From Pseudoscleropodium purum (lineage: Eukaryota > Streptophyta > Bryopsida > Hypnales > Brachytheciaceae), in NCBI GenBank assembly GCA_963969395.1, contig OZ017799.1:17548501-17612500 (forward strand): a DNA stretch of 64,000 nt, written 5' to 3'. This document shows positions 2,068-60,240 of the stretch, in pieces. The position numbers and the translations under genes were made by a program. Every line of letters begins with the position of its first letter. The stretch's first letter is position 1. A model generated the notes under the pieces. It did not search any database, was not told where the DNA came from, and saw nothing but the letters and a program-made list of their open reading frames with translations.

Positions 2068-3010
2068 TTAACCCCTTAAGGACCGAACTACGTTTTTTGG
2101 TTGTATTGAAAATTTGGACAAGCCATTGTGACTAGAAATTTGCATATTTAAGGCTGAAATTGTAGTAGAAGTTGTAGACGAGGAATATCTTTCATATGCA
2201 ACAAATTTAATGACATTTGGAAATAGGAGTCAAAAGTTATAGCCTAATATGTAGTTTGTTTTTCAACTTAGGCAGTTTGGGCAAGTAGAAAAAATCACTC
2301 TTTTCATAAATCACTCTTTTCATAAAATTTGAAATTCGTTTTCTAGACTTATATATACAAGGAAAGCTTTGAATCATTCCATTTTGATAAACGAGTCCAA
2401 AGTTATGAGGATTTTTTGTTTGTGGGCAATAATGGATTCCCAACTCTAAAATAAACTTTGAAATCCTTTATTTTACCCAATTTTCAATATTTTTGAAAAA
2501 AAAATAAATCCTAGGATGTAAATTTTTTATTACAACATTTCAACCATTGCGAATGAAAATTTTCAATTCCATACTTTAATTCTTAATAATTTAGTATTTT
2601 GAATCATTCTCTACTACTACCTACTTACTATTTTTTTCCTATATGTTGTACAATTCCAAATGATCTGAAATTTTTCAAGCATGTATCTAACATACCTTGA
2701 AGAACAAATCCAAAGAGTTGCAATCATTTTGAACATTTTTTCATAAAAATTTGACCTTGTGAAGTTCAACTACCCGCTTTTTTGCAGGGACAAAAAAATG
2801 ATTTTTGTCACTTCAAATGTTAATATCTTGCAATCTATACGGTGGAAATTTCTGAAATTTTTTTCACATCTTTTCAAACTAGTTTACTACAAGATCCTAT
2901 GATTACATGTGTCCAAAAATTTTTGTTTTTTTAATTTTGAAACTTGTCCAAGAAATGGCAATTTTGGAGTGTTTTTAGCAAAAACATAGTCCAAGAACTT
3001 TAGAGGTTAA
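2068..3010 (+). mobile_element. TTAA-bounded ~0.94-kb nonautonomous element, copy A
   Basis: The segment begins TTAA-CCCCTTAAGGACC and ends with the imperfect inverse, CTTTAGAGG-TTAA. The interior matches copies B (23303), C (26522) and D (59695) in the same orientation and F (21663) and G (about 7950) inverted. Shared landmarks are 'GAATCATTCCATTTTGAT', 'TAGTATTTTGAATCATT' and 'GCAATTTTGGAG'. No transposase-like frame is present. It looks like a nonautonomous DNA transposon using TTAA targets. The family assignment (piggyBac-like or Kolobok-like) is inference. Confidence 0.7.
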
Positions 3011-7949: not shown

Positions 7950-8770
7950 GCTAGTTTTTCATAAAAAACATTCAAAATTGTCATTTTCAATGCAAACAAC
8001 AAAAACTTTAAGCATTTGTCTCTTTGGCATATCCAGTTGTAGGGGCTTGAAATAAACTAGTATAAAAATTTCTAGAAGAAATTTTAAGAACTTTAACTAT
8101 ATTAATATCATAATCTAAGCATTTTAAATATAAGAAACAAGTTTTTTAGTTCCTAGCTAACTAACTTGATTAGATTTTAAAGTTTTGAATCTTTTTAATT
8201 AAAATTTTTTGCACTACAAATTGGGAATTAAATTTTTTTTTTATATTGAAGAAATGAGTTGAGAGTTCTAAAAAGAGAATTCCAAAAAAAATTCTGTGAT
8301 TTTCATTCTTTAAAAATTGTTAAATCAAAGTAGGTATAAGATAAAAAAAAAAAAACTAAATTGTTGATAGCTCTAAAATGGAATTGAAACAAACCAATAA
8401 TGAAATTGTTGTAGAAAACAAACTAAACCATGTGTAACTTTCTTTTTGAATCGTTAAAATTGAATTTGAAAATGAATCTAATATATTAATTTCTGAAGAA
8501 TTTGCTTAAAATTGCTACAAAATAAGAAGCTTCATAATTTTCACATCACATATTCAAATGGAATGAATCAAATCTTTGCACCTAGACAAAAATATAATCT
8601 ATAATAAATAAACTTAAATTTAGTTTTTTGTTGCCTACCTTCTCCTATTTGGGGCTTATAGTTATAAGGACATAACTTTTGTTCCCAAGCACAAATTGAA
8701 ATTAAATTTACATTCATAGAAAGTTTATTAGTTTTCCTATTTTGAAAAAGAATTCAGAAAGTCTTGCCAA
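7950..8770 (-). mobile_element. Degenerate TTAA-family element, copy G (inverted)
   Basis: The interior aligns with copy F at 21663-22570 in the same inverted orientation. Shared words include 'TTTTTTGCACTACAAA', 'GAGTTGAGAGTT', 'AAATGGAATGAATCAAA' and 'CATAACTTTTGTT'. Both termini are too eroded to define ends, so the limits are approximate. Confidence 0.6.
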
Positions 8771-18782: not shown

Positions 18783-19985
18783 ACTACACTATCCACTCAA
18801 AACATGGCTCCCCAATGGTTTGCATTAGTTCTCCCCCTCCTCTCTCAAAAAATTTATGAGCTGTTGATTTTTTTGAAAAAAAATGCTTACCCCAAAAATT
18901 GACGTTGATTTCTCAAAAAATCACAAGATGTTGATCTTGTGAAATTTAATCTGAGCCGTTCAAATATAAAATACAAATATTGAATACAAATACGAATACG
19001 GCTACGAGTTCTGGATATGAGTACTAAATATGTGTATTGAATACAGATATTGAATATGGATACTGAATATAGATATTAAATACAGGTATTAAATATGGAT
19101 ACTAAATACGGATATTGAATATGGGTACTGAATACAGGCACTAAATACAAGTATTAAATACGGATACTGAATACGTATATTGAATACGGGTACTAAATAC
19201 ATGTATTAAATACGTATACTGAATATGGATATTGAATACGGTTACTAAATATGGATACAATATTGGAAACGGGATCAATTGTCCCATATTGTTTGTCAAG
19301 AACTTTGATTCTGAAGATTACAAGAGGGGGTGGGGGTGGGGGGTGAGATAAAAAAATTTAAAGCAAATTTTAAATGATAGGTGGGGGTGGGGGTGAGATA
19401 AAAAAATTTAAATCAAATTTTAAATGATAGGTGGGGGTGAGTAGGGGTGGTAAAATAAAAATTGAAGGGGGGAGTGTATAGTGACGCAAAGTGTCACTAT
19501 ACACCTTGAGTGCCTAATAACTATAACTACAGATATGGTTCCACTATCCACTCAAAAGATGGCTCCCCCATGGTTTGCATTAGTTGCCCCCCCTCTCTCA
19601 AAAAATTTATAGGCGGTTGAGATTTTAAGAAAAAATGCTTACCATCAAAATTGCTGTTGATTTCTCAAAAAAATCACAAGCTCTTGATTTTGTGAGATTT
19701 AATCTGAGCCGTCCAAATATGAAATGTGAAATGAATATTAGATACATACACAGTATCAGATATGGATATAGGATGAATACTAAACACAGGTACCGAATAC
19801 AAATATAATACTAGATATGGATACACGATGAATACTAAATATGGGTATCGGATACAAATATAGTATTGGATATGGATATAGATACGGGATGAATATATAT
19901 TGAATACAATACCAAATATGGATACGGGAGGAATTATCTCATATTGATTGTCACTATATTGGTTTCTGAAAATTACAAGAGAGGG
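18783..19985. repeat. Tandem duplication with two variable minisatellites
   Basis: Two units, about 18783-19335 and 19544-19985, share an opening 'CACTATCCACTCAAAA-ATGGCTCCCC' block, then 'GGTTTGCATTAGTT', 'CTCTCAAAAAATTTAT' and 'TTTAATCTGAGCCGT'. Each continues into an array of TACGGATATTGAA-like words (about 18966-19265 and 19725-19935) and ends in 'CATATTG-TTGTCA' and 'ATTACAAGAG'. Between them, 19325-19440 repeats a G-rich ~54-bp unit, (GGGGGT)n + GAGATAAAAAAATTTAAA, twice. The arrays differ in length between the units. Confidence 0.75.
19474..19504. other. Perfect 12-bp-stem hairpin
   Basis: GTGTATAGTGAC (19474-19485) is followed by a 7-nt loop and its exact reverse complement (19493-19504). 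It lies between the two tandem units. With no T-run or coding neighbour it is not an obvious terminator; it may be a decayed element end. Confidence 0.6.
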
Positions 19986-23302: not shown

Positions 23303-24243
23303 TTAACCCTTGAAGGACCAAATGAGTGTTTTTTTTTGGCAATACAACGATTTTAGGCAATTCACTATAGATAGAATTTTTATTTTTTTCTTTGAAATTT
23401 TCACACAACATGTGCCCAAGAAGTAGCTTTAAGGCACAACAATTTTTATAACTTTTGACTATATGGTTAAAAAATTATCGCATGATATATAGTTTTCATT
23501 GATTTTCGGGCAACCCAAAAATTTCTTTAAAAAACAATCTTTGAAGAAATAAAAATTTGAAATTGGTTTTTTAGATTTATATATATATATGTGGAAAAAT
23601 ATGAATCATTCCATTTTAATTAATGAAATGAAAGTTATGAGGAGTTATAGTTTGTGCCTTCGCAAGCACTTTTTGGAGTCTCTATTCTAAAATATACTTT
23701 GAAGTCCTTTATTAAACTCTATTTTCAATATTTTTTGAAAAAAAATCATAGGATGTAGATTATATATTACAACATTATAACCATTGGGATTTTCATTTTT
23801 AAAATCCATAACTAAATTTGTAACAAATTTAGTATTTTGAATTATTCTCCACTTCTTTCTACTTACTATTTTTTCCTATATGTTGCATAATTTCAAATGA
23901 TCTAAAATTTTTCAAGAATGTATCCAACTTGCCTTGAAAAATTAATCCTAAGGTTAACCACCATTTGGAAGATTTTTTTTATACAACTGTGATTTTGTAA
24001 AGTGTAGTTGCCTGTTTTTTTTATAGGCCCTTCAAAAGCCATTTTGTCAATCCAAACACTAATATCTTGCAATCCACATGGTGAAATTTTTTGAAACTTT
24101 TCTCTTTTCAAACTAGCATATTACAAGATCCTATAGTTATATATGTCCAAAATGTTTTTTCTCTAAAATTTGGTTCTTATACTAGAAATGGCAGTTTTGG
24201 AGCATTTTTGGTGAAAACATAGTAAAAACCCTTTAGAGGTTAC
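23303..24243 (+). mobile_element. TTAA-family element, copy B
   Basis: Starts TTAA-CCCTTGAAGGACC and ends CCCTTTAGAGG-TTAC, the last base of the TTAA having mutated. Length is 941 bp, against 943 bp for copy A. The interior matches copies A and C along its whole length, including the TATATATA stretch after 'TTTTTTAGATTTA'. Confidence 0.72.
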
Positions 24244-26521: not shown

Positions 26522-27490
26522 TTAACACCTAAAGCACTAATTTGAAGGGGTTTTCTATCAACATTGCAATTTACAACACCTCACTACAAATAAAATTTAA
26601 ATTTTTTATCTTCAAAATTTTCACACATGCCGAAGTACTACCTTTGAGCCCCACTAATTTTTATAAATTTTCATTAGATGCTTCAAAAGTTGTTGTATGA
26701 TATATATAGTTTTCATTGCTCAATGGGTAGCTCAAAAAACTTCTTAAAAAATCACTTTTTCCAAAAACTAAAATTTAAAATTGATTTTTTAGATTTATAT
26801 ATATATATATATCTATCTGTGTGTGTGTGTGTGTGTAAAGATTTGAATCATTCCATTTTGATTGATGAAATGAAAGATATGATGAGTTTTAGTTTGCAAG
26901 GAGTTTGTGAGCAATCATGGATTTTCTATTTCTAAAATAAACTTTAAAGTCTTTTATTTAACTCATATTTCAATATTTTAGAGAAAACAAAAAATCATAT
27001 GTAGATTGTTTATTTCCAACATTACAACCATTAGAATTGTCATTTTTCAATTATATGAATAAATTGTTAACAAATTAGTATTTTGAATCATTTTTCTTTA
27101 CATATAATTTTTTCTTGTATATTGTACAATTCCATATGATCTGAATTTTTTCAGCCATATAACAAACTTGCCTTGAAGAATGAATCCAAAAAATCTAGAC
27201 AATTTTGGACATTCTTGTGTATAAATAGGCCATTGTAAAGTACAAGTACCCATTTTTTTGTGGAGCCAAAAAGAATATTTTAAGTCACTTCAAATGCTAA
27301 TGTCCTACAATCTACACAATGGAACTTCTAAAAACATTTCCACATCTTTGCAAACTAGCATACTACAAAATCCTATGGTTACATGTGTTCAAAATATTTT
27401 TCCTAAAATTTGGTTCTTCTACAATAATAGAAATGACAATCCTAGAGCATTTTTTCCATGAAAACAAAGTAAAAAACTTTTAGAGGTGAA
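26522..27490 (+). mobile_element. TTAA-family element, copy C (eroded ends)
   Basis: The left end TTAA-CACCTAAAGCAC and the right end ACTTTTAGAGG-TGAA are recognisable but mutated. The interior matches A and B and carries an expanded TA/GT microsatellite at about 26797-26836. Noncoding. Confidence 0.65.
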
Positions 27491-41380: not shown

Positions 41381-41639
41381 AGCATGGAACTCCACAAGGA
41401 ACCTTTGGAAGTCAAGAGGATGTGCCTTCTATTTAGACAAGTGAGGACAAAGTAAGGGTTGGATGAGATTGAAGGTTTGAAGTTTTGTTCTAGAAATTGG
41501 ATCATAGGAAGGTCAATTAAGCTCTAAAGCTTGCCTCAGAGAGAGGCATTCATATCATCACCATTACCATCAATAAACCTTAGTGGTGTGGCTATGGTTG
41601 TAAGTGGCAAGTCCATTTGCAATAGAGCAATTTCTTGTA

Positions 41640-41820
41640 AGAAATATATGTTTTAGATGACAAATTTTAGGTGACATTCAATGTAACAACTTGTGTTTTT
41701 ATGTCAACAACAATATCTACCACTTGATGTTATAGCAGTCGTTATTGTTGACATAAAAACATAAGTTATTATATTGGATGTCATCTAAAGTTTTTCATTT
41801 AAAACATAGATTTTTTATAG
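41640..41820. mobile_element. Foldback (stem-loop) MITE
   Basis: The left arm (about 41640-41714) and right arm (about 41740-41820) are inverted complements over about 70 bp at roughly 85% identity. Both read TATGTTTTA...TTTTTATGTCAACAA toward a ~25-bp loop. The right outer end is TTTTTTATAGTGG. No coding capacity. Confidence 0.75.
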
Positions 41821-43747: not shown

Positions 43748-43931
43748 TGTTAGCATAAGTTAGTTAACTGTAGCGTTACAACAATTTATGAACTGTAGAG
43801 TCTCACCGTTCTGATAGATTAAGCGGTCTCCTTGCTTGTATAAAGCCTCAGACTTTGAACCTTTATATATATATATATAAATTTAAATTCTTTCAACTTC
43901 ATTACTTTGTTTGTTTGTATTACTTTCCACA
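43748..43931 (+). repeat. 5' LTR of the copia element
   Basis: Starts TGTTAGCATAAG and ends TTTCCACA (or two bases later). It contains 'GCTTGTATAAAGCC', a TATA-type promoter, and a short (TA)n. About 184 bp. Confidence 0.9.
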
Positions 43932-44298: not shown

Positions 44299-44354
44299 AT
44301 GGATTCCTCTTCTACCGCAAGCTCAGCTTCTCAAGCATATATAATACCGGATAA
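44299..44354 (+). pseudogene. gag: gag, 5' fragment (copia)
   Basis: ATG at 44299 opens MDSSSTASSASQAYIIPDKC, the start of gag. Reading is interrupted at the ATGCAT duplication (44355-44360) by the DNA transposon and resumes in frame at 52474 with INPTTTYSIQL. This continuity across 8.1 kb is the main evidence for the nested insertion. Confidence 0.82.
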
Positions 44355-44360
44355 ATGCAT

Positions 44361-44377
44361 GGATGGGTGGACCAAAA
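44361..44377 (+). repeat. Left terminal inverted repeat of the DNA transposon
   Basis: GGATGGGTGGACCAAAA, exact inverse of 52451-52467. It abuts the ATGCAT target duplication. Confidence 0.92.
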
Positions 44378-44457
44378 CCGACAGATGCTGCTTCCTAGGG
44401 AGTCCATGTACTCTCAAATTTTGGAAATAAGCTGGTAGGGTCGGTTATAGGCCCTGT

Positions 44458-44467
44458 CCACGTGTCA
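44458..44467 (+). promoter_or_regulatory. G-box/ABRE-like box, left promoter
   Basis: CCACGTGTCA occurs about 100 bp inside the left end, upstream of the plus-strand gene. The same 10-mer occurs at 51855-51864 near the other gene's promoter. CACGTGTC is the plant ABRE/G-box core bound by bZIP and bHLH factors. Confidence 0.5.
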
Positions 44468-44787
44468 AAGGCTAAGTGGCCGAATAGTTAGTGGGGTAGG
44501 ACGTCCAGGCAGGCCACGTTTTGCGTCGTACGCGCGGTGAAGCAGGTTTTTGAACGTTGGGAGGATTTTGGGTGGGGGAATGGATTGGCCGTCGATTTGG
44601 ATTGACTCTGAGGATCTACGGTCGTGGCTGTCAAATTGTGTCAGTTGTCTCTCTCGCAAAGTTCAGTTCCAGAGCGATTACACGCTTTCGTAGAACTTGT
44701 CGCATTTCTGAACTTTGAGTCCACTGCAAAATGATTAGGTTGTATGCTTAGACAAACTGTTCATTTTCAGTGGGGGTTAAGGAAGAA

Positions 44788-47469
44788 ATGGCCACGATGA
44801 ATGATATTGAGGACTTGTGGATTTTAGAAGCAGGTGGGGAGGAAATGTGTAGAGGAAAGGGTGTTAAGGTTGAAGCTGGAGATCCTGCATCTTACGTAGA
44901 CTCGTATTATGCAGAGCAACCACTAATAGTGTTTGATAGGATAAACCCAGTCTCACGCAAGGTATTCGTAGAGAAGTATGGTCTGTGCAATGAGGGAATC
45001 AGTCCCAAACGTTTGAAGATAGGGTTGCACTTATCTGAGGATGATGTAGAATTGTATTTCGGGCCTTGTATCAATAGGAACGGTTACAGGTATTCCTATA
45101 CCGAGAATGAGGAATTCATAAAAGAGGTGGAGCTCAGGTGGATGATCTGCCACCAGCGGACAGGTGTGCCTAACTCTCGCATTATCAACAAGTCCGAGGC
45201 ACACGCTTGGGCTTTTGAAAAAGTGAAGGCCAGGAAGGTGAACTGGGCTGTCTTTGCAGAGTGGACGTGCCGAGACCAACTGTCCAGAGTCCAACGTGTA
45301 AGCGAGAAGGACAACGTGGGGTCCGGGAGTTTGCTTGAGGCAAAAAAGGAAGGTGCGTAAGAAAGAAGAAGGTCTCTTCCGAGCGATCCAAAACCAGGAC
45401 CTTCATTCACCACAAGAGACGTTACGGAGATAATGCCGGAGAGTAGCAACCGGCGTTTGAGCGACTTTCGTGAGAACAAATCTGTGGGTGAATGGCAGGA
45501 ATACTTGGCTACGTTAGAGAGAGAGTTGCCTTGCTCTGAAGATGTGGTGACAGCTTTATTTAAGAAGAAAGAGGCAGCAATCTTGGAGAAGGTGCGTGTG
45601 GTGAGCGAGGTTGATTATGGGAGCAGATTGTTGATAAGCACTGAAGAGAAGTTGCAACAGCTGAGGAGCCAACTTGATGAGAAAACAAAGTCAGAAACTG
45701 GATTTGAAGGGGACGATTCATCGAATCTTGAGATTAGCAATCTTATGAAGCAAATCGACTCTCAAGTTGGCGTCGTAGCTACATTTCGGCAGGTGAGTGG
45801 GCTTGGAAATGCCGATCAACATTCAATTTTGCTAAATGTAAGTAGGCGGAGGAGACTTGGATAAACGCATTGGAGAAGCTGGAAGTGTGGAGGATGCACA
45901 AGGTTGAACTCCAGCAGTAGTTGAAGAATATGAAATTGGGGCTTCAGCGCCCTGGACTATTTCCAACCCCGATGCCTTTTGTCGTGCTAGATCCAGAGGA
46001 GTGCAAGGTTCAACCAGTTGAGGTCTCCATTTCAGAGTGTCCGTTTTGTCACAGGGGTTTTGAGCCAGCTTGGGATTGTAAGCTCGCAAGTTGCAAGCAC
46101 GGTTACCATTCTTGGTGTGCATACACACACTTCTCAAAGTCCACAAGGTGTTTTCTAAAAACTTGTAATCAAGAAATGCATTCTGATTGGTGGATAATGG
46201 CTGGGGTAGTAAATCCTACAAGTTTGGGAGTTGAGGCATCTATGTGGAATGCTAAGGAGGCTATAGGAGGAGCAAGTGGCGCTGAAGGTATGATCCGCCT
46301 CTCAAAACTGTAGAAAATCTTGATTTATTTTGCATGAGTGGAGTTCTTGTTCACAAGTGACTCTGTAGGACTGTTATTGTTTTTAGGGTACTAAATTTTG
46401 CTTCACTAGAACTATGGCGTATTCAGGTGATAGTCACTATTTACTGTTAAAAAAAGAGTATGCATGTGTTCAGTCTTAGATTGTCACAGTTGAGTCCCAA
46501 ACTACCTCCTCATTGTTTAGAGACTGTTGTATACTTACTGAAACACTTTGACATTTGCAATGGTTGTGTACGCATAGTTCCTCAATGTCTACGTCTTCCC
46601 TTCAATAGTCCATATTACTAATAGTAGAGTCAATGTAATTGAGATACGACCTTCAATGGCCTTTGAATTCAAAATATAAACCCCTAGGTAGTCCATGTTA
46701 TACTGAAGTAGTTTGTGTTATCTCCAAGTAGTCCATGTTATACTCATTGAAGTCCATGTTACCAACAAAAATTCCCTAGGCCTTGCAAGTAGTCACCATT
46801 GTCGTCAAGTAGTCCCTGCGAGACCCTAAAACCTCTTTAGACGTCTAGATTCTCCAAGAATTTTGATAGCAGTTGTCTTGACAACAATTTATTTTGAAAA
46901 CCAATGATTACTGATAGCATTTGATGGAGTGCTCTACAGATTTCGGAAGAGCACCAGTCTCATACTCCACCCAGACCGGAAGACTCTCCATTCAACGCCG
47001 CTCCAGAACGGTTAGCCCCTCAGTAGGGAGTATCAAGCTTGCGAATACTCGCATGCAATCGACATTGCCAGTAACAGAACTGGAGGCCACAGTTCTGGCA
47101 TTGCCTGAAGAAGAGCCTATGATGGAGACTCCGGCTACGGCATCACGCCCGCTACCAAGTAATGAAGTTGTTTTTGGTGATAAAAGAAGAAGAGGTGTGA
47201 AGAAAAATACGATCCAAGCTACAATGGAATTAGTTGCGGAGCCCAATTCTAAAGAACAACATTGCTTCGAAGAAGACGAGGATCAAGCTACAGCAAACTC
47301 AGGCCGAAGCAAATCAGAAGACAAAGGGCATGAGGAAGGTGATGACGAGGCAGAGAATGTCTCTGCTGCAAAAAGAAGAAGGTCAGGTGGAAAAGAGAAG
47401 AAAACTCCTATTGAGAAAAGAGTATCCCAAGCAAGAATTACTCGTGCAGTTCAAAACAGGGGAAAATAA
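44788..47469 (+). pseudogene. Transposon partner gene: coiled coil, RING-H2-like finger, NLS tail
   Basis: Proposed exons are 44788-45792, 45846-46287 and 46940-47469, summing to 1977 nt (659 codons with stop). Donors are CAG|GTGAGT and AAG|GTATGA, acceptors GTAAGTAG| and CTACAG|; both phases restore the frame. The first intron would be only 53 nt, short for a plant. The ATG at 44788 follows a TTTTCAG acceptor-like site and has good context. Residues 1-190 are an unrecognised domain; about 220-385 is helical/coiled coil. Residues 400-442 (46038-46166) form C-x2-C-x14-C-x-H-x2-H-x2-C-x10-C-x4-C, a RING-H2-like zinc finger. The tail has KRRRGVKK and AAKRRRSGGKEKK nuclear signals between acidic runs. 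A TAA (45358) and a TAG (45918) interrupt it. Role unknown: it might aid transposition or act on host ubiquitination. Confidence 0.7.
46288..46939 (+). other. Inferred intron 2 of the partner gene
   Basis: GT...AG boundaries give a phase-1 join (G|AT) between the RING exon and the NLS exon. Composition drops to AT-rich inside. About 46600-46830 repeats 'AAGTAGTCCATGTTATAC'-like words several times, a degenerate minisatellite. Confidence 0.6.
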
Positions 47470-47820
47470 AGGTAAATTTTCAAAGCCATTCAATGATTGT
47501 ACCTCTACTTTGAAGGAATTCTTGTTGTTTTAAGTGCTGGTGATTGGGTCTTGTTGAGATTGCTTACATGCGGTTGGAATTTTTTGGGTAAAACCAGGAC
47601 ACGTATGTAAAGACCACCAAGACCATTGGCATCAGCTTCACCCATTTTGGCATCAGCTGCCCTGAAGCACGATGACCGTGAGCCTCACTTGAGAGATGCA
47701 ACCATAAACATTGACGGGAGCTGAGAACAAGGAATGCACTATCGGTGCATAGCTTTTTTATTTGTAGTGCAGAACATATACAGTAGTAGTTCTTCAGCTA
47801 TACAAATTTTTGAAATTTTG

Positions 47821-47905
47821 TATTAGAGCTCAAAACATCAACCTTTGTTCTAGAGCTCAAAACATCAGCCTTTGTTCTAGACCTCAAAACATCAGCCTTT
47901 GAATT
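47821..47905 (-). repeat. 27-bp repeat array related to a transposase exon segment
   Basis: Three tandem 27-bp units read on the minus strand as ADVLRSRTK/ADVLSSRTK/VDVLSSNTK. The same segment (VDVLSSRTKA) occurs once inside transposase exon 1 at about 50930-50960, with DNA nearly identical over about 25 bp (CTTTGTTCTAGAGCTCAAAA). The array lies between the 3' ends of the two genes. Confidence 0.8.
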
Positions 47906-47914
47906 TGAGGCAAT

Positions 47915-48085
47915 ATCTTTAAGTGTTGGGTGCACTTTCTCTAAATATTGAATGCAACATTTTCTCAAAGTATTTGGGTGCATATTCCCTAAGTGTTGGG
48001 TGCATTTTTCCTAAGTGTTGGATGCATTTTTTATAAGTGTTGAGTACAACTTTTGTAATTGTGCCTAAGTGCTATGAAGTAAGCA
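47915..48085. repeat. ~23-bp degenerate minisatellite
   Basis: About six units of the form CTAAGTGTTGGGTGCATTTTT, degrading at both edges, lie between the two genes of the transposon, directly beside the 27-bp array. Confidence 0.7.
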
Positions 48086-48213
48086 CAGGAAGTAAGCATA
48101 CACATTTGCAATGATTATTCCACAATATTCAAAGAGAAGTAGTGAAGTATAACATATATCATTAAAAATGGTAGCATTTTGAATTGTTTTTTCCATATAG
48201 AATACTGGGCATA

Positions 48214-51200
48214 CTATCTGAACTCCAGAATATCAAGAATTCGCTCATGGACTGCTCCATCTAATTTGTACACAGGATCATTTCCTGACACTCTATAGTC
48301 AGCTGGCACCATGGGAAATTTAACAGCTCTAATGTCCCCCAAATGGACATGAGCTATCTTTGACTTCTTCAAAAAAACGTATGTGTCAATCCCTGTTCCA
48401 TACTTCTGATAATACCTTGCTTGGACTACCATATCTCCAACTACAAAATGCTCACCCCAAGGGCATATGAATGCATCTTGAACTACGTAGGGCTTTGTGC
48501 AACAAGCGAGGAGGTAGAAACTAACACCTTCCTCATTGTCTTCATCTGCAGGAGTAGCAAAGTTATCTCCCAGCTCAAGACAAGCACCCAGAAGCTCACC
48601 ATTAGTACCAAAACCGTCCCATAACTCAAAATTGAATGCATCCTTCATTGTATCTTGGACATAAGCTACAGATTCTGGCCTCAACATCTCCATCTCCCAA
48701 TCACCACACCAAGGCGTATTAATACATTCTCCCCATTTTTCATCAATACATGCAAAACAGAAGCATGCAAGATTCCTTTTTAGTAGTTTATTCACCTCCA
48801 TTTTATTAACTGACTGCACAGAATGCAAATCCCTTGTGCCCTCTATGGTATCAATTACATACTCATGCTCCCTGTCAACATCGTCAATGTCAACCAACTA
48901 AAAGGTCCTGTGCACTGGTCGGCGATCTCCCCCATTGTAGCTCGTCTCTGGCCTTTCACTCAAATTCTCACGCAACAAATTGACAATGTCAGCTGCACAT
49001 TGCAACTTCGGACCTTGTACATCTAGTTGCTTTTGTCGGATGAATCGCTTTAGTACAGCCCCAGTTCCATCATGGGGCCCCTTTCCATGACCAGATCCAA
49101 AGAAACTCCACAAGCACTTGCAACCGTCAGTAATTTCTGGGTATCTACTGACAAAATACCAAGGAACTTTACTTTTAAACTGACTACTGCAACCATCAAA
49201 CCACACCCAATGTCTTCTAGGCTTGAAACCCGAAAGCACAAGATCCTCATAATGCAATGTGAGACAATGCTGGACAAAATAACTACCATGTGTTTTATCA
49301 TCAGATACATAGAAGTGGTATTTACACAAAGTCTTTGAGCTTTCATCAAATGGATCAGGGTGAGGGTTTCTTATCCATGAAATTTGAACAAGAATAGTAA
49401 CCTGATAACTATGCCAATGCATTGACTGAACTTCGTTTTGAACCTCAAAACTATAATTCTCTGCGAAATCAATTACAGAAACAATTGTGTCTTGAGGGAA
49501 GTTAGCTAAACACTCCCTGAATTGCCGATCTTCCCACTTCGCCACGAAACTATGTTTCACAAAAAACTGTAGCTTTGGTATGAAGTACTCTAAGAATTCA
49601 ACCGAAGTGGTATTCTTGTAAATTAACTGAAGCTTCTTCCGTACCTCCCCTTTCTTCGTAGTAACATCCTGCATTGCAAAGTGCTTCCACTGGACAAGTG
49701 CGTCAGAGTGGCCATCTTTTTCATGAGGGCAGATGGGTAAAAAGTCAATACCGCACTAGTCACATTCGCCAAAGACATAGTTTCTAGCGTGCCATTCACA
49801 GAATTCCTCACGAGGGCACAAAATAGCTTCTTGAAGCTCAGTTGTTCCACCATATATCAACTCTGATCCTTTGCAACAAGTATCATCACCCTGTAAACAT
49901 GGCTGTTTGCAAAGACAACGTGCATGACCTTCTTGCCGACACAACTCTTCACAATCACATTCACAAACCTTTGAATTGTGCAAACTTGTTTTTTGCCTCA
50001 TATAGTTGAAACCTAGCCGAAGTTCTTCCATCTCAACATGGTAGATGCAACAACAGACATTTCGTTCTTTCAACTTCCTCACAAAAAAGGTCGCAAAGAG
50101 TCAAACTTTCTTTTTCCAATAATGATGTTCGGATGGGCTGCCCTGAACCTTAAGAAAAACGCCATCTGCATTCACAAACAACCAATACAGCTCTATCAGA
50201 AAATACCTCTGAGGATCTCCATGAAAGACTCCCTAAATCCCATGTCATATTTAAAAGATTACTTTGAACTCCAACGAACTCACATGACTGACCACAATGT
50301 CCAAAGGAATTCATCAAATCTGAATACATTCCTTCAATACTCAATGGAAGTCTGATTCTTCATACTATCTCCCCGAATTTTCCAAATTGTCCTCATCTGT
50401 CTATAAGGAGGCCTACATGCCTCGATATAGTCCTCATGGGCTCACTTCAACTCCAGTAAACTCATCGAAGATTCTGAAAATGACCAGCCACTGAACTACA
50501 TTTCGAACATGTTCGAAGGAGTTCATCGATTTTCAATTATAGTTGTAAGAGTTACGAGACTGTCACTGCTTGTCACTGTAGGTTCTACTAAACCCTCAGA
50601 AACTCCTAGAACCAAACAATAGGTACTCCTTTCACTCCTCAACATCTCTGTACATTCCCACTAGACCTTTGAAGTACCAATGCAATACTCTCTCTAACTC
50701 CTCAAATACCCTGAACAATACAGAAAGACAGTACTTGTTCATCACACATTGAAGCACTCTTAAACATTACTGAAAACAAATTGTGAACGATAGAGAAGCA
50801 AACCTGAGATTCCAACAAATATTGCGCAGGCTTTTCATCCCTAACCCCAGCCTCCAAGCGTTTGGAAACAACACCTTTACGATTTGGACTCATCCTAGTC
50901 TCTGAAATCCACCAGTCAGTCACAATAGCCTTTGTTCTAGAGCTCAAAACATCAACCCTAACTTTCCTCACTGAGAGGTTCCAAGAGAACCGGTCAGCCG
51001 CATCCATCCTTTGTCGACGTTGTACTGCAGCTGCAATGTTTCGATGGTGAACTCTAAGTATCCTAGCCCTTTTCCTCAATGAGGTGGATCCACCACCACT
51101 TACTGCAGTAGTGAGAAGTGCATGTTTTGTTGCAAGTTTTGCTGCAGTGCGAGGTTGCTTAACCTCTTCCAACGACAGCACCAACCCCGACATGATGGAG

Positions 51201-51604
51201 TGCTCCACAGTTGAAAGCCTACAAGCATCCTCCGGTAATGTATCATTTGAGATCGGATGCTCCCATACCTTGCGCAATACTGTCTCCCTTGCCTTCGCAC
51301 TCAGAAATGTACCAAGGGCCTTAGACATTGTCCCCACAATCGTGGAAACAGCCCTCCTGATCGATCTGGAATCTACTTCGCCTTCGTCACTGCGTTTTCG
51401 GGAACTAAGCAACGGTACAGTACATTTTCGAGCCTCTCTAATCGACTCTTCTTTGTCCCGAAGTTCTTGTGCCCTCTTCCGACTACGGCAAAGCCTCTGC
51501 CTCTCTCTTGCGGCGACTCTCTTGATCTCTGCTACCCTCTCCCGCTCACAAGGTCCTTCCCTAATTCTTCCTTGGTGCCTCTCTCTTGCTTGAGTTGAAC
51601 CCAT
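48214..51604 (-). pseudogene. DDD-type transposase gene of the 8.1-kb transposon
   Basis: Exon 1 is 51604-50804 (267 codons) and exon 2 is 50165-48214. The intron has GT at 50803-50802 and AG at 50167-50166, phase 0. Exon 2 is 1952 nt; restoring one T in the T-run at 50083-50088 gives 651 codons, so ~917 residues. Residues 1-60 are very basic and helical (ARERHQGRIREG..., RDKEES). Later comes WWISETRMSPNRKGVVSKR, then GKRKFDSLRPF and the Cys-rich VCCCIYH...CECDCEELC...CLCKQPC...CPREEFCEWH. The core has SVIDFAENYS (D at 49468-49470), WFDGCSSQFKS (D at 49195-49197) and GSGHGKGPHDGTGAVLKR (D at 49069-49071), spacings 91 and 42. The C-terminus carries C-x-C-x2-C and C-x5-C pairs. In-frame TAG codons at 49753-49755 and 48898-48900 plus the 1-bp deletion inactivate it. 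The motif order recalls uncharacterised animal mobile-element proteins (from memory). Confidence 0.85.
50166..50803 (-). other. Inferred intron of the transposase gene
   Basis: 638 nt. The donor CAG|GTTTGC follows codon Gln267; the acceptor GAATGCAG| precedes ATGGCG. Exons join in phase 0, and the protein motifs on either side fall in the expected order. The interior has no protein-like frame. Confidence 0.7.
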
Positions 51605-51854
51605 TGAAACTCTTTCTCGTCAACTCTAAGGAGAATACAGTATACTACAACTTAGGGTGCACGAGTAGCAGGAAATTTTTTGAGCAAAAGTTGTCCATGC
51701 GCTTAGAGAGCAGAAACTCCACAAAATTGTTGCAGGACTCTGAATGAACTGCACACCCTCCCAGCCGCATCCGGCGAACCCTAAACCCTAAATTAGAGAC
51801 GATGACCAGGAACCATTGATCTTAGGGCTTGCAAAGTCAATCATTCGATTTGTG

Positions 51855-51864
51855 CCACGTGTCA
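51855..51864. promoter_or_regulatory. G-box/ABRE-like box, right promoter
   Basis: CCACGTGTCA lies about 250 bp upstream of the transposase ATG, identical to the box at 44458-44467. Conserved placement near both promoters suggests shared regulation; function not shown. Confidence 0.5.
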
Positions 51865-52100
51865 GTAGGACAGTGTGGGCCAGTCTGCCATGGCCCATCA
51901 GCGAACTCAGACAAGCTTCTTATTCCAGATTGCAACATTTTTGAGAAACACCTCTATTCCTATGAAATTCCTTATTCATTGACTTGCCATTGTAGAGAGT
52001 GTAAAATAAAACGGAATAGAAGAAAAAAAAAAAAAAAAAAATTGAAGAGAAGGTTAAGAAAATGAGTCTTGAAAATAGTCACTATTCCAAAGTGCTATAA

Positions 52101-52429
52101 AGTCCCTAGCACACAAACGAAGTTACTCTTTTTGAATTGAAAAAGTAGTATAGAATCCTTATAATGTCATCTATCCAATATTCAGTCCCTACATACACAA
52201 TAAACAACTCTTATATTCCAAATTCATTCAAATTTAACGATCTGTCATACTGTGACAGTCCCTATGTTCCTACTTCAAAAGTCCCTTATTTCAATTATAG
52301 TATCATTAGTTAAAAATAAATAACAGAGTCCTTTATATGACCAAGTATGAAACAAATTCTCTCCGTTTTTTACTTAAATGCTCAATGCCTATCATGAGCA
52401 ATAGGCCTTGCAATGACAAGGAGTCCCTA
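52101..52429. repeat. Reiterated AGTCCCT(A/T) sites in the right subterminal region
   Basis: AGTCCCTA occurs at 52101, 52184, 52257 and 52422, with AGTCCCTT at 52280, all in one orientation. The outermost site belongs to the block inverted against 44396-44409. Many transposases bind subterminal motifs arranged like this. A poly-A run lies just inside at about 52023-52040. Confidence 0.6.
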
Positions 52430-52450
52430 AAAACTGTTTTGTGACACTAA

Positions 52451-52467
52451 TTTTGGTCCACCCATCC
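52451..52467 (-). repeat. Right terminal inverted repeat of the DNA transposon
   Basis: TTTTGGTCCACCCATCC, exact inverse of 44361-44377, followed by the ATGCAT duplication at 52468-52473. Confidence 0.92.
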
Positions 52468-52473
52468 ATGCAT

Positions 52474-53278
52474 CAACCCTACCACCACTTACAGCATCCA
52501 ATTATGTGACCTAGAGTATAAAACTTGAAATGCTCCTACTTCGATCTAAACTTTGGTCCGTCATTGACGATATGGAGGCTACTCTAGCTTCTTCCGATGT
52601 TGCAGGTCTTGCAACTTGGGCACTAAAAGATGCCAAAGCTCGTTTTGATATATTCTTGCATTGTGGAGAAAAGCAACTCATTTCGTTGCATCCACTTAAG
52701 ACCTCAAAAGAAATATGGACTCATATAAAGCAACTCTACGAAAAATCCAACAAAGCTAGTCAAGTAAATTTACACAAGGAGCTATGTCACATGACTATGT
52801 TTGACACAGAAGATGTCATTAATTTCTTAGAAACTTGGTAGTCAATTCTCCAAGAAGTGGCAATTGCTGGTTGCATCTTCATGGAATCCCAACAAGTTCA
52901 CCTGTTTTTAGCATCTCTACCTCCATCATGGAGTTCGTTTATTATAACACAAAGTGGGATTATAGATCTCACATTTACAACTCTTATATCAAATATATTA
53001 CAACAAAATGATCTTAACAACACTATAACATCTAAGCAACACAAAAACACAACAAATGCCTTCTATATCAAAGGTAAATTTACCAAATCTTCTTCATATA
53101 AATCAAACTCACATGGTCAAAAACCAAATTTTTCAAAACACATTAACAAATCTAATTCTGATCATAATCTATCAGAAAATAAAATAATATGCCATTATTG
53201 TGGTATCTTGGGTCACAAAGCACTTGACTGTAGGAAAAAGAAAAGAGACCTAGGCCATGAAATTGGTTCTTCTTCGTG
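52474..53278 (+). pseudogene. gag: gag, main fragment (copia) with zinc knuckle
   Basis: The frame continues from the 44299 fragment (YSIQLCDLEYKT), then a TGA and 1-nt frameshift near 52525-52530 lead into LLLRSKLWSVIDDMEATLAS, a typical copia capsid region (UBN2-like). A TAG at 52839-52841 follows LETW. The nucleocapsid zinc knuckle C-x2-C-x4-H-x4-C is intact at 53190-53231 (CHYCGILGHKALDC). Gag packages element RNA in virus-like particles; this copy cannot make the full protein. Confidence 0.85.
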
Positions 53279-56698: not shown

Positions 56699-56811
56699 TG
56701 TTAGCATAAGTTAGTTAACTGTAGCGTTACAGCGATTCATAAACTATAGAGTCACACCGTTCTGATAGACCAAGCGGTCTCTTTGCTTATATAAAGCCTC
56801 AAGCTTTGAAC

Positions 56812-56876
<65 letters not shown>

Positions 56877-56926
56877 TAAATTCTTTCAGCTTCATTATCT
56901 TGTTCGTCTGTATTACTTTCCACACA
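56699..56926 (+). repeat. 3' LTR of the copia element
   Basis: Begins TGTTAGCATAAG and ends TTTCCACACA. It matches the 5' LTR with about 18 substitutions, mostly transitions, and carries an expanded (TA)n at about 56814-56872 that accounts for its 228-bp length against 184 bp. Confidence 0.9.
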
Positions 56927-59694: not shown

Positions 59695-60240
59695 AAAGTC
59701 CAAATGGCATTTTTTGGCAATATAGCAATTTTGGGCACCTCATCACAAAATTGTTTTATTGTTTTTTTCTTTGAAATATTCACTTAACATGTATCAAAGG
59801 AGTAGCTTTAAGGTATAACAATTTTCATAAATTTTGACTATATGGTTAAAAATTTATTGCATGATATTTAATTTTCATTGCTTAGTGGAGTAGCTTGAGT
59901 AGTTCAAAGTATTTCTTAAAAAATCACTTTTTAAGATATAAATTTTTTAAATTATTTTCTTAGATTTATGTGGATGTGGAAAGCTTTTCATATTCCATTT
60001 TGATTAATGGGATGAAAGTTATGAGGAGTTTTAGTTTGTGAATAGTTATTGAATTTGTAGTTTAAGATAAATTTTAGAGTCCTTTAATTAACTCAATTTT
60101 TGAAAAAAAATGAAAATTGTGGATGTACATTGTTTATTACAACATTACAACTATTGGGATTGGCATTTCTAACAATTCTTAACAACTTAGTATTCTAAAT
60201 CATAATCTACTTCTTTCTACTTACTATTTTTTTTAGGCAT
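59695..60240 (+). mobile_element. TTAA-family element, copy D, 3'-truncated
   Basis: Left end TTAA-TCCATAAAAGTCC, then the family body ('TTTTTTGGCAATATAGCAATTTTGGGCA', 'ATTCCATTTTGATTAATG', 'TTTCTACTTACTATTTTTTT'). Similarity stops at about 60240 and the right end is missing. Confidence 0.62.

Follow-up and report, generated by a model that had tools for sequence, protein, structure and literature searches.

A decayed Sola-like DNA transposon with two convergent genes in a copia element of the moss Pseudoscleropodium purum

Sola elements seem to be among the less studied of the cut-and-paste transposons. They are described as having a DDD transposase (with a triad of aspartates), 4-bp target-site duplications (TSDs), terminal inverted repeats (TIRs) that vary from 11 to 1124 bp and lengths mostly of 2-9 kb, with some above 15 kb (PMC10741241). 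They are reported from the moss Physcomitrella (PMC10741241), for which Sola1 is tabulated (PMC9033089), and from metazoans, and are said to occur in bacteria too (PMC10741241). Sola2 elements have been described with AT-rich TSDs (PMC3627910), and the Cryptomeria genome paper assigns 0.6% of that genome to Sola-2. Here we analyse a transposon in a stretch of 64,000 nucleotides (the window) from the moss Pseudoscleropodium purum (contig OZ017799.1, positions 17,548,501 to 17,612,500). We consider it likely that positions 44349-52479 hold a dead copy of a formerly autonomous Sola-like cut-and-paste element, whose second gene encoded a helper and whose family went through a burst, silencing and decay.

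Four other kinds of element each disagree with it in a defining feature. Mutator-like elements (MULEs) typically carry fairly long TIRs and have TSDs of 7-12 bp, Ginger has TSDs of 4-6 bp, 5'-TG...CA-3' ends and TIRs of 40-270 bp, and CACTA has CACTA/CACTG ends and a 3-bp TSD (PMC10741241), while Dada makes 6-7 bp TSDs and targets multicopy small RNA genes (PMC3706591). The element studied here has a TSD of exactly 4 bp in all nine two-ended copies, which disagrees with MULEs; its ends, GG(G/A)T...ACCC, and 29-bp TIR disagree with Ginger; both ends and TSD length separate it from CACTA; and the 4-bp TSD and the insertion in a copia gag separate it from Dada. Agreement with Sola is found in the TSD (two of two two-ended sister elements share the 4-bp length), in a DDD triad within an RNase H-like core, as judged from alignment and predicted fold, and in size and TIR, at 8131 and 29 bp, the sister elements being 9632 and 12835 bp long. 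The core with its three carboxylates is also that expected of integrase-like DDE/DDD enzymes, in a predicted model with parts of low confidence near the active site. The element therefore fits the published description of Sola; the likeness is judged from that description, and no subgroup (Sola1, Sola2 or Sola3) is assigned.

Limits, copies and insertion site

The host genome was searched with the left 72 nt and the right 88 nt of the element, which matched ten and nine places, respectively. Paired, these ends define nine complete copies of 8131-8241 bp, the window copy included; a tenth (L018) lacks some 76 bp at its right tip. No other copies came from these end searches, which could miss short non-autonomous derivatives. 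Comparison of the nine gives the limits 44349-52479, a span of 8131 bp with 29-bp TIRs and a 4-bp TSD. The sequence that follows the incomplete right end of L018 (L018:8447-9001) is unlike the other copies.

The original prediction had set the limits at 44361..52467, with exact 17-bp inverted ends between 6-bp ATGCAT duplications. These boundaries lie 12 bases too far in on either side. The 12 bases beyond each of them are common to all nine copies, at different sites and with a few point differences, and past them the shared sequence ends abruptly on both sides. Because ATGCAT and its flanking bases are thus common to copies at different sites, ATGCAT is part of the TIR and not a duplication. 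The inverted ends themselves are real, with perfect arms of 23 nt (44355-44377 and 52451-52473), within a TIR of 29 rather than 17 bp. Immediately outside stands a 4-bp direct repeat, perfect in every copy (TACC, AGGC, ATCC, TCAA, TATG, TGCA, TGCA, TTAT and AGTA), whereas no copy has equal repeats of 3, 5, 6, 7 or 8 bp when measured from those positions. The family ends read GGGTAAATGCATGGATGGGTGGACCAAAA on the left and, inward, GGGTTGATGCATGGATGGGTGGACCAAAA on the right, one copy having ACCT in place of ACCC and the window copy starting GGAT. That ATGCAT does flank the 17-bp repeat in the window copy speaks for the earlier model, which is nevertheless almost certainly wrong: besides the shared bases, the gag frame breaks under its limits, and two sister elements show the same pattern as the copies. 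Further copies with the same ends and both genes, named as a check, thus do exist, with duplications of 4 bp and not 6. The features of the element are as follows.

44345..44348, no strand: left TSD, TACC, equal to 52480-52483; a perfect 4-bp repeat in 9/9 two-ended copies
44349..44377, plus: left TIR, 29 bp, GGATAAATGCATGGATGGGTGGACCAAAA; tip GGG in 7/9 copies
44788..46287, plus: second gene exon 1, with a small N-terminal domain, a long coiled coil and a RING-like zinc motif; the stops and frameshift lie here
46035..46157, plus: RING-like Cys/His cluster; best Pfam match zf-RING_2, E 0.0022, 18.7 bits, below the curated cut-off of 27.3
46288..46939, plus: second-gene intron, GT-AG, 652 nt, predicted from frame and splice sites; 612-652 nt in the nine copies
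46940..47469, plus: second gene exon 2, a charged tail with basic clusters
48214..50165, minus: transposase exon 2, with a Cys-rich part, the DDD RNase H-like core and a C-terminal domain
48898..49755, minus: open piece of exon 2 with triad motifs DFAENY, FDG (SDG in relatives) and HGKGPHDG
50166..50803, minus: transposase intron, GT-AG, 638 nt, predicted; 638-713 nt in the nine copies
50804..51604, minus: transposase exon 1, 267 aa
52451..52479, minus: right TIR, 29 bp, GGGTTGATGCATGGATGGGTGGACCAAAA read inward, from inverted-arm comparison and copies
52480..52483, no strand: right TSD, TACC, from copy comparison

Identity among the nine copies is 97.6-98.3%, no two being especially close, and each diverges by about 1% from the majority, a pattern most likely left by one burst of transposition. 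Against the column majority there are 774 differences, 648 of them C>T or G>A changes, with rates of 0.050 per CG, 0.053 per CHG and 0.0076 per CHH site. Such a spectrum is what plant CG/CHG methylation would give.

The host of the window copy is a copia element, represented by two pieces of its long terminal repeats (LTRs):

43748..43931, plus: left LTR piece, aligning as two pieces with parts of 56699-56924 at 91% identity
56699..56924, plus: right LTR piece, about 91% identical in comparison with 43748..43931

The claim that gag reads on when the insert is skipped holds with 44349-52479 removed, giving MDSSSTASSASQAYIIPPLTASNYVT (...SSASQAYIIPPLTASNYVT) and then an in-frame TAG; with 44361..52467 removed the frame shifts at the junction. 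A query of 200 nt joined across the corrected junction recovered both of its halves from the host genome, along with three further copia copies. These run uninterrupted across the site, at 67-75% identity by local alignment (72-79% in the search), and their gags read AYSVPTLRVGNYATWSIKLEML, AYSISPLTPSHYATWSMKIEML and AYSVSALNARNYATWSIKLKML there. The empty sites in related copia elements that had been proposed as a check are therefore present, and together with the copies they support a complete DNA transposon nested in copia. Since the LTR pieces are about 91% identical, against the roughly 1% divergence of each transposon copy, the copia element is probably the older of the two.

The two genes and a sister family

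The minus-strand gene has two exons and one predicted GT-AG intron and yields a product of 917 aa. Earlier choices of acceptor gave wrong frames; TGCAG/ATGGCG fits all nine copies, and exon 2 of the sister-family copy R2 likewise begins at CAG/ATGG. In an alignment of 124 rows (profile A1), counted over ungapped rows, the triad is conserved as D219 in 115/115, D310 in 118/118 and D352 in 104/107. The predicted core is RNase H-like and integrase-like, and some 160-180 of its residues match the catalytic domains of retroviral integrase, IstA and Mos1. The product is a DDD transposase with, as modelled, an integrase-like RNase H fold. Named relatives come from a moss (Ceratodon), a streptophyte alga (Klebsormidium), conifers (Cryptomeria, Taxus), a limpet (Patella), a hydrozoan (Clytia) and a leech (Helobdella). 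Foldseek against BFVD gave nothing at E<=0.001, and a scan of IMG/VR, with two peptide patterns each for the transposase (A1) and the second gene (A2), found no relatives. The gene is intact in none of the nine copies; in the window copy exon 2 carries a frameshift (a 1-nt length change) and two in-frame stops.

The spacer between the two genes holds about three copies of a 27-bp unit (47817-47901), to which 36 nt of transposase exon 1 (50922-50957) are 89% identical. The repeat may derive from a fragment of the exon copied into the spacer.

The plus-strand gene (44788-46287 and 46940-47469, with one predicted intron) would encode 676 aa. A further intron near 45800 was rejected, copy L022 being open in a single frame through that stretch of exon 1. 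Of the nine copies, one has the full predicted frame open; in the window copy it is broken by a frameshift and stops. The two convergent spliced genes of the original prediction are thus present, each with one predicted GT-AG intron, and both are broken in the window copy, a point it did not make. A search scoring the 7995 candidates that shared most words gave 11 related proteins, at 40-48% identity. The structural model (P0018, pLDDT, the predicted local distance difference test, 57) comprises an N-terminal domain and a long coiled coil; VIA-align listed proteins with long helices or coiled coils, from which no kinship can be read. The top Pfam row for the relatives, Lipase_chap (E 0.00011), is below cut-off, falls on the coiled coil and looks like chance. 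Judged from its sequence, the product is probably a coiled-coil, RING-like protein, the RING likeness lying below the Pfam cut-off, and the basic clusters of its last exon could be nuclear localisation signals.

Searching the host genome with the 858-nt transposase core as a DNA query matched 20 places: the ten family copies, eight relatives with 67-72% of their nucleotides identical, and two short fragments. Five of the eight (R1-R5) were examined, those on C41, C43 and C42 being left out. Both ends could be read in R1 (C1; 12,835 bp) and R2 (C40; 9,632 bp). The left ends start GGGAGG and the right GGGTGA or AGGTGA, followed by ATGCA(T/A)GGTTGAGTGGACCAA, and the TSDs, AGAG and GAAG, are again 4 bp. 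Their transposases are about 60% identical to that of the window family over exon 2, and their convergent second genes about 41%. R3 (C40) and R4 (C48), seen from the left side only, have the same left end and a second gene, so that a convergent second gene accompanies four of the five relatives examined, of eight found. All the sister frames that were checked, those of the second gene in R1-R4 and of the transposase in R1 and R2, are interrupted by stops. The intergenic spacer is about 6.4 kb in R1 and 3.2 kb in R2 (loci L056-L060).

Between L022 and R2 the mismatch rates at first, second and third codon positions are 0.42/0.36/0.70 in the second gene and 0.31/0.22/0.56 in the transposase. 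The comparison of R1 with R2 shows no clear excess at the third position (0.035/0.033/0.039 and 0.027/0.033/0.016, respectively). This contrast suggests that selection kept both proteins while the families diverged, and that lone copies decay freely.

Interpretation and rival readings

Going by fold and triad, the enzyme that bound the 29-bp ends (GGG...ATGCATGGATGGGTGGACC) was most likely the 917-aa transposase; it would then have cut the element out and joined it to target cuts staggered by 4 bp, leaving the duplication that is observed. The second gene most likely provided a nuclear coiled-coil, RING-like helper of transposition, perhaps one that bridged the ends or countered silencing, and would have been kept under protein-level selection while the two families diverged. 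The pattern of changes suggests that the family spread in a single burst, was silenced by CG/CHG methylation and decayed. Several results weigh against this account. The superfamily name derives from TSD length and triad rather than from a comparison with curated Sola transposases. Neither Pfam nor NCBIfam gave a family at its cut-off, and two transposase patterns found no relative in bacterial and archaeal genomes (84,980 species). In the transposase model the stretches beside the catalytic residues, 223-239 and 312-315, have pLDDT <50, and Foldseek against the PDB gave nothing at E<=0.001, Argonaute chains ranking first; the second-gene model is poor. Finally, neither a second gene nor a sister-type end was found within the 5.8 kb read at R5 (C46).

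Some of these points would suit a separate, unnamed DDD superfamily sharing its 4-bp duplication with Sola by chance. A PDB sequence search with the 285-aa core likewise found no relative; the conserved second gene is absent from the available description of Sola (PMC10741241), the TSDs are not AT-rich as in Sola2 (PMC3627910), and the two-pattern scan met no prokaryote relative, though Sola is said to occur in bacteria. Yet TSD length, triad, size and TIR length are all within the Sola description, the relatives come from a moss and from metazoans, groups in which Sola has been described, and one is a protein of Cryptomeria, a genome with Sola-2; we regard a separate superfamily as unlikely. 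Membership, as a divergent form, of Academ, Chapaev/CMC, Ginger or a MuDR-like two-gene group is far less probable still. Academ and Chapaev have TSDs of about 4 bp and MuDR also has two convergent genes; the 4-6 bp range of Ginger includes the length seen here. Neither the 7-12 bp TSD of MULEs nor the TG...CA ends and 40-270 bp TIRs of Ginger are found, however, and no named transposase family in Pfam matches at cut-off.

The second gene might alternatively be a passenger, a captured host gene or selfish cargo dispensable for transposition. In favour of this, it is not accounted for by any named family, it has changed faster than the transposase (the identity between families being 43%, as opposed to 61%) and no such gene was found beside one of the five relatives examined. 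We consider a passenger rather doubtful, given that the gene keeps its side and convergent orientation across two families with about 60% identity between their transposases, that the third-position excess points to selection on its protein and that 11 related proteins exist elsewhere. A bolder reading, which we hold tentatively and lean against, is a two-component streptophyte system, in which a Sola-type or separate DDD transposase is coupled to its own coiled-coil RING-like partner for end pairing, target choice or defeat of silencing. If true, this would make the system a superfamily of its own or, at the least, an architecture that is new.

Elsewhere in the window lie a degenerate tandem array at 19015-19258 (unit 13/26/39/52 bp, GTACTAAATACGG-like), an imperfect palindrome at 41638-41817 (80% match to its own reverse complement over 183 aligned positions) and dispersed repeats 73-77% alike at 23332-24242, 26581-27487, 2324-3009 and 59710-60232, perhaps another retroelement family.

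Comparison with known systems

For the likely Sola-like element, the case offers exact ends, a clean 4-bp duplication and a burst with plant-type methylation decay, along with a second gene apparently kept by selection beside the transposase in two families of one genome. Whether such elements require two proteins to move, as PIF/Harbinger elements do (PMC2836001), thereby becomes a testable question. The original prediction saw here the best candidate for an undescribed system in the window, which holds only in part. The TSD and DDD transposase are as described for Sola; the conserved second gene was not found in print and seems to be the new part. Searches of the open-licence literature turned up no paper that links Sola to an accessory or second protein, which is weak evidence of absence.

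In maize MuDR, too, two genes are transcribed convergently, and the role of the second is unclear. The element resembles it in this, and with MuDR built likewise, the supposed rarity of a convergent gene pair among plant cut-and-paste transposons is doubtful. It differs in its 29-bp TIR and 4-bp TSD, MULEs usually having longer TIRs and TSDs of 7-12 bp. With retroviral integrase, IstA and Mos1 it shares the RNase H-like fold over about 160-180 residues, at some 9-12% identity; the fold is common to DDE/DDD enzymes and to others, Argonaute among them, and no membership follows from it. The proteins of Ceratodon, Klebsormidium, Cryptomeria, Taxus, Patella, Clytia and Helobdella, annotated only as hypothetical or uncharacterized and compared by protein alone, share the motifs DF(A/S)ENY, D(G/N)...Q(F/Y)K and HGK..(x)DG. 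With Sola, the element has in common the 4-bp TSD, the DDD transposase, the variable TIRs, the size and the occurrence in moss; it departs from the available Sola description (PMC10741241) in its conserved convergent second gene, not mentioned there, and from Sola2 (PMC3627910) in TSDs that are not AT-rich.

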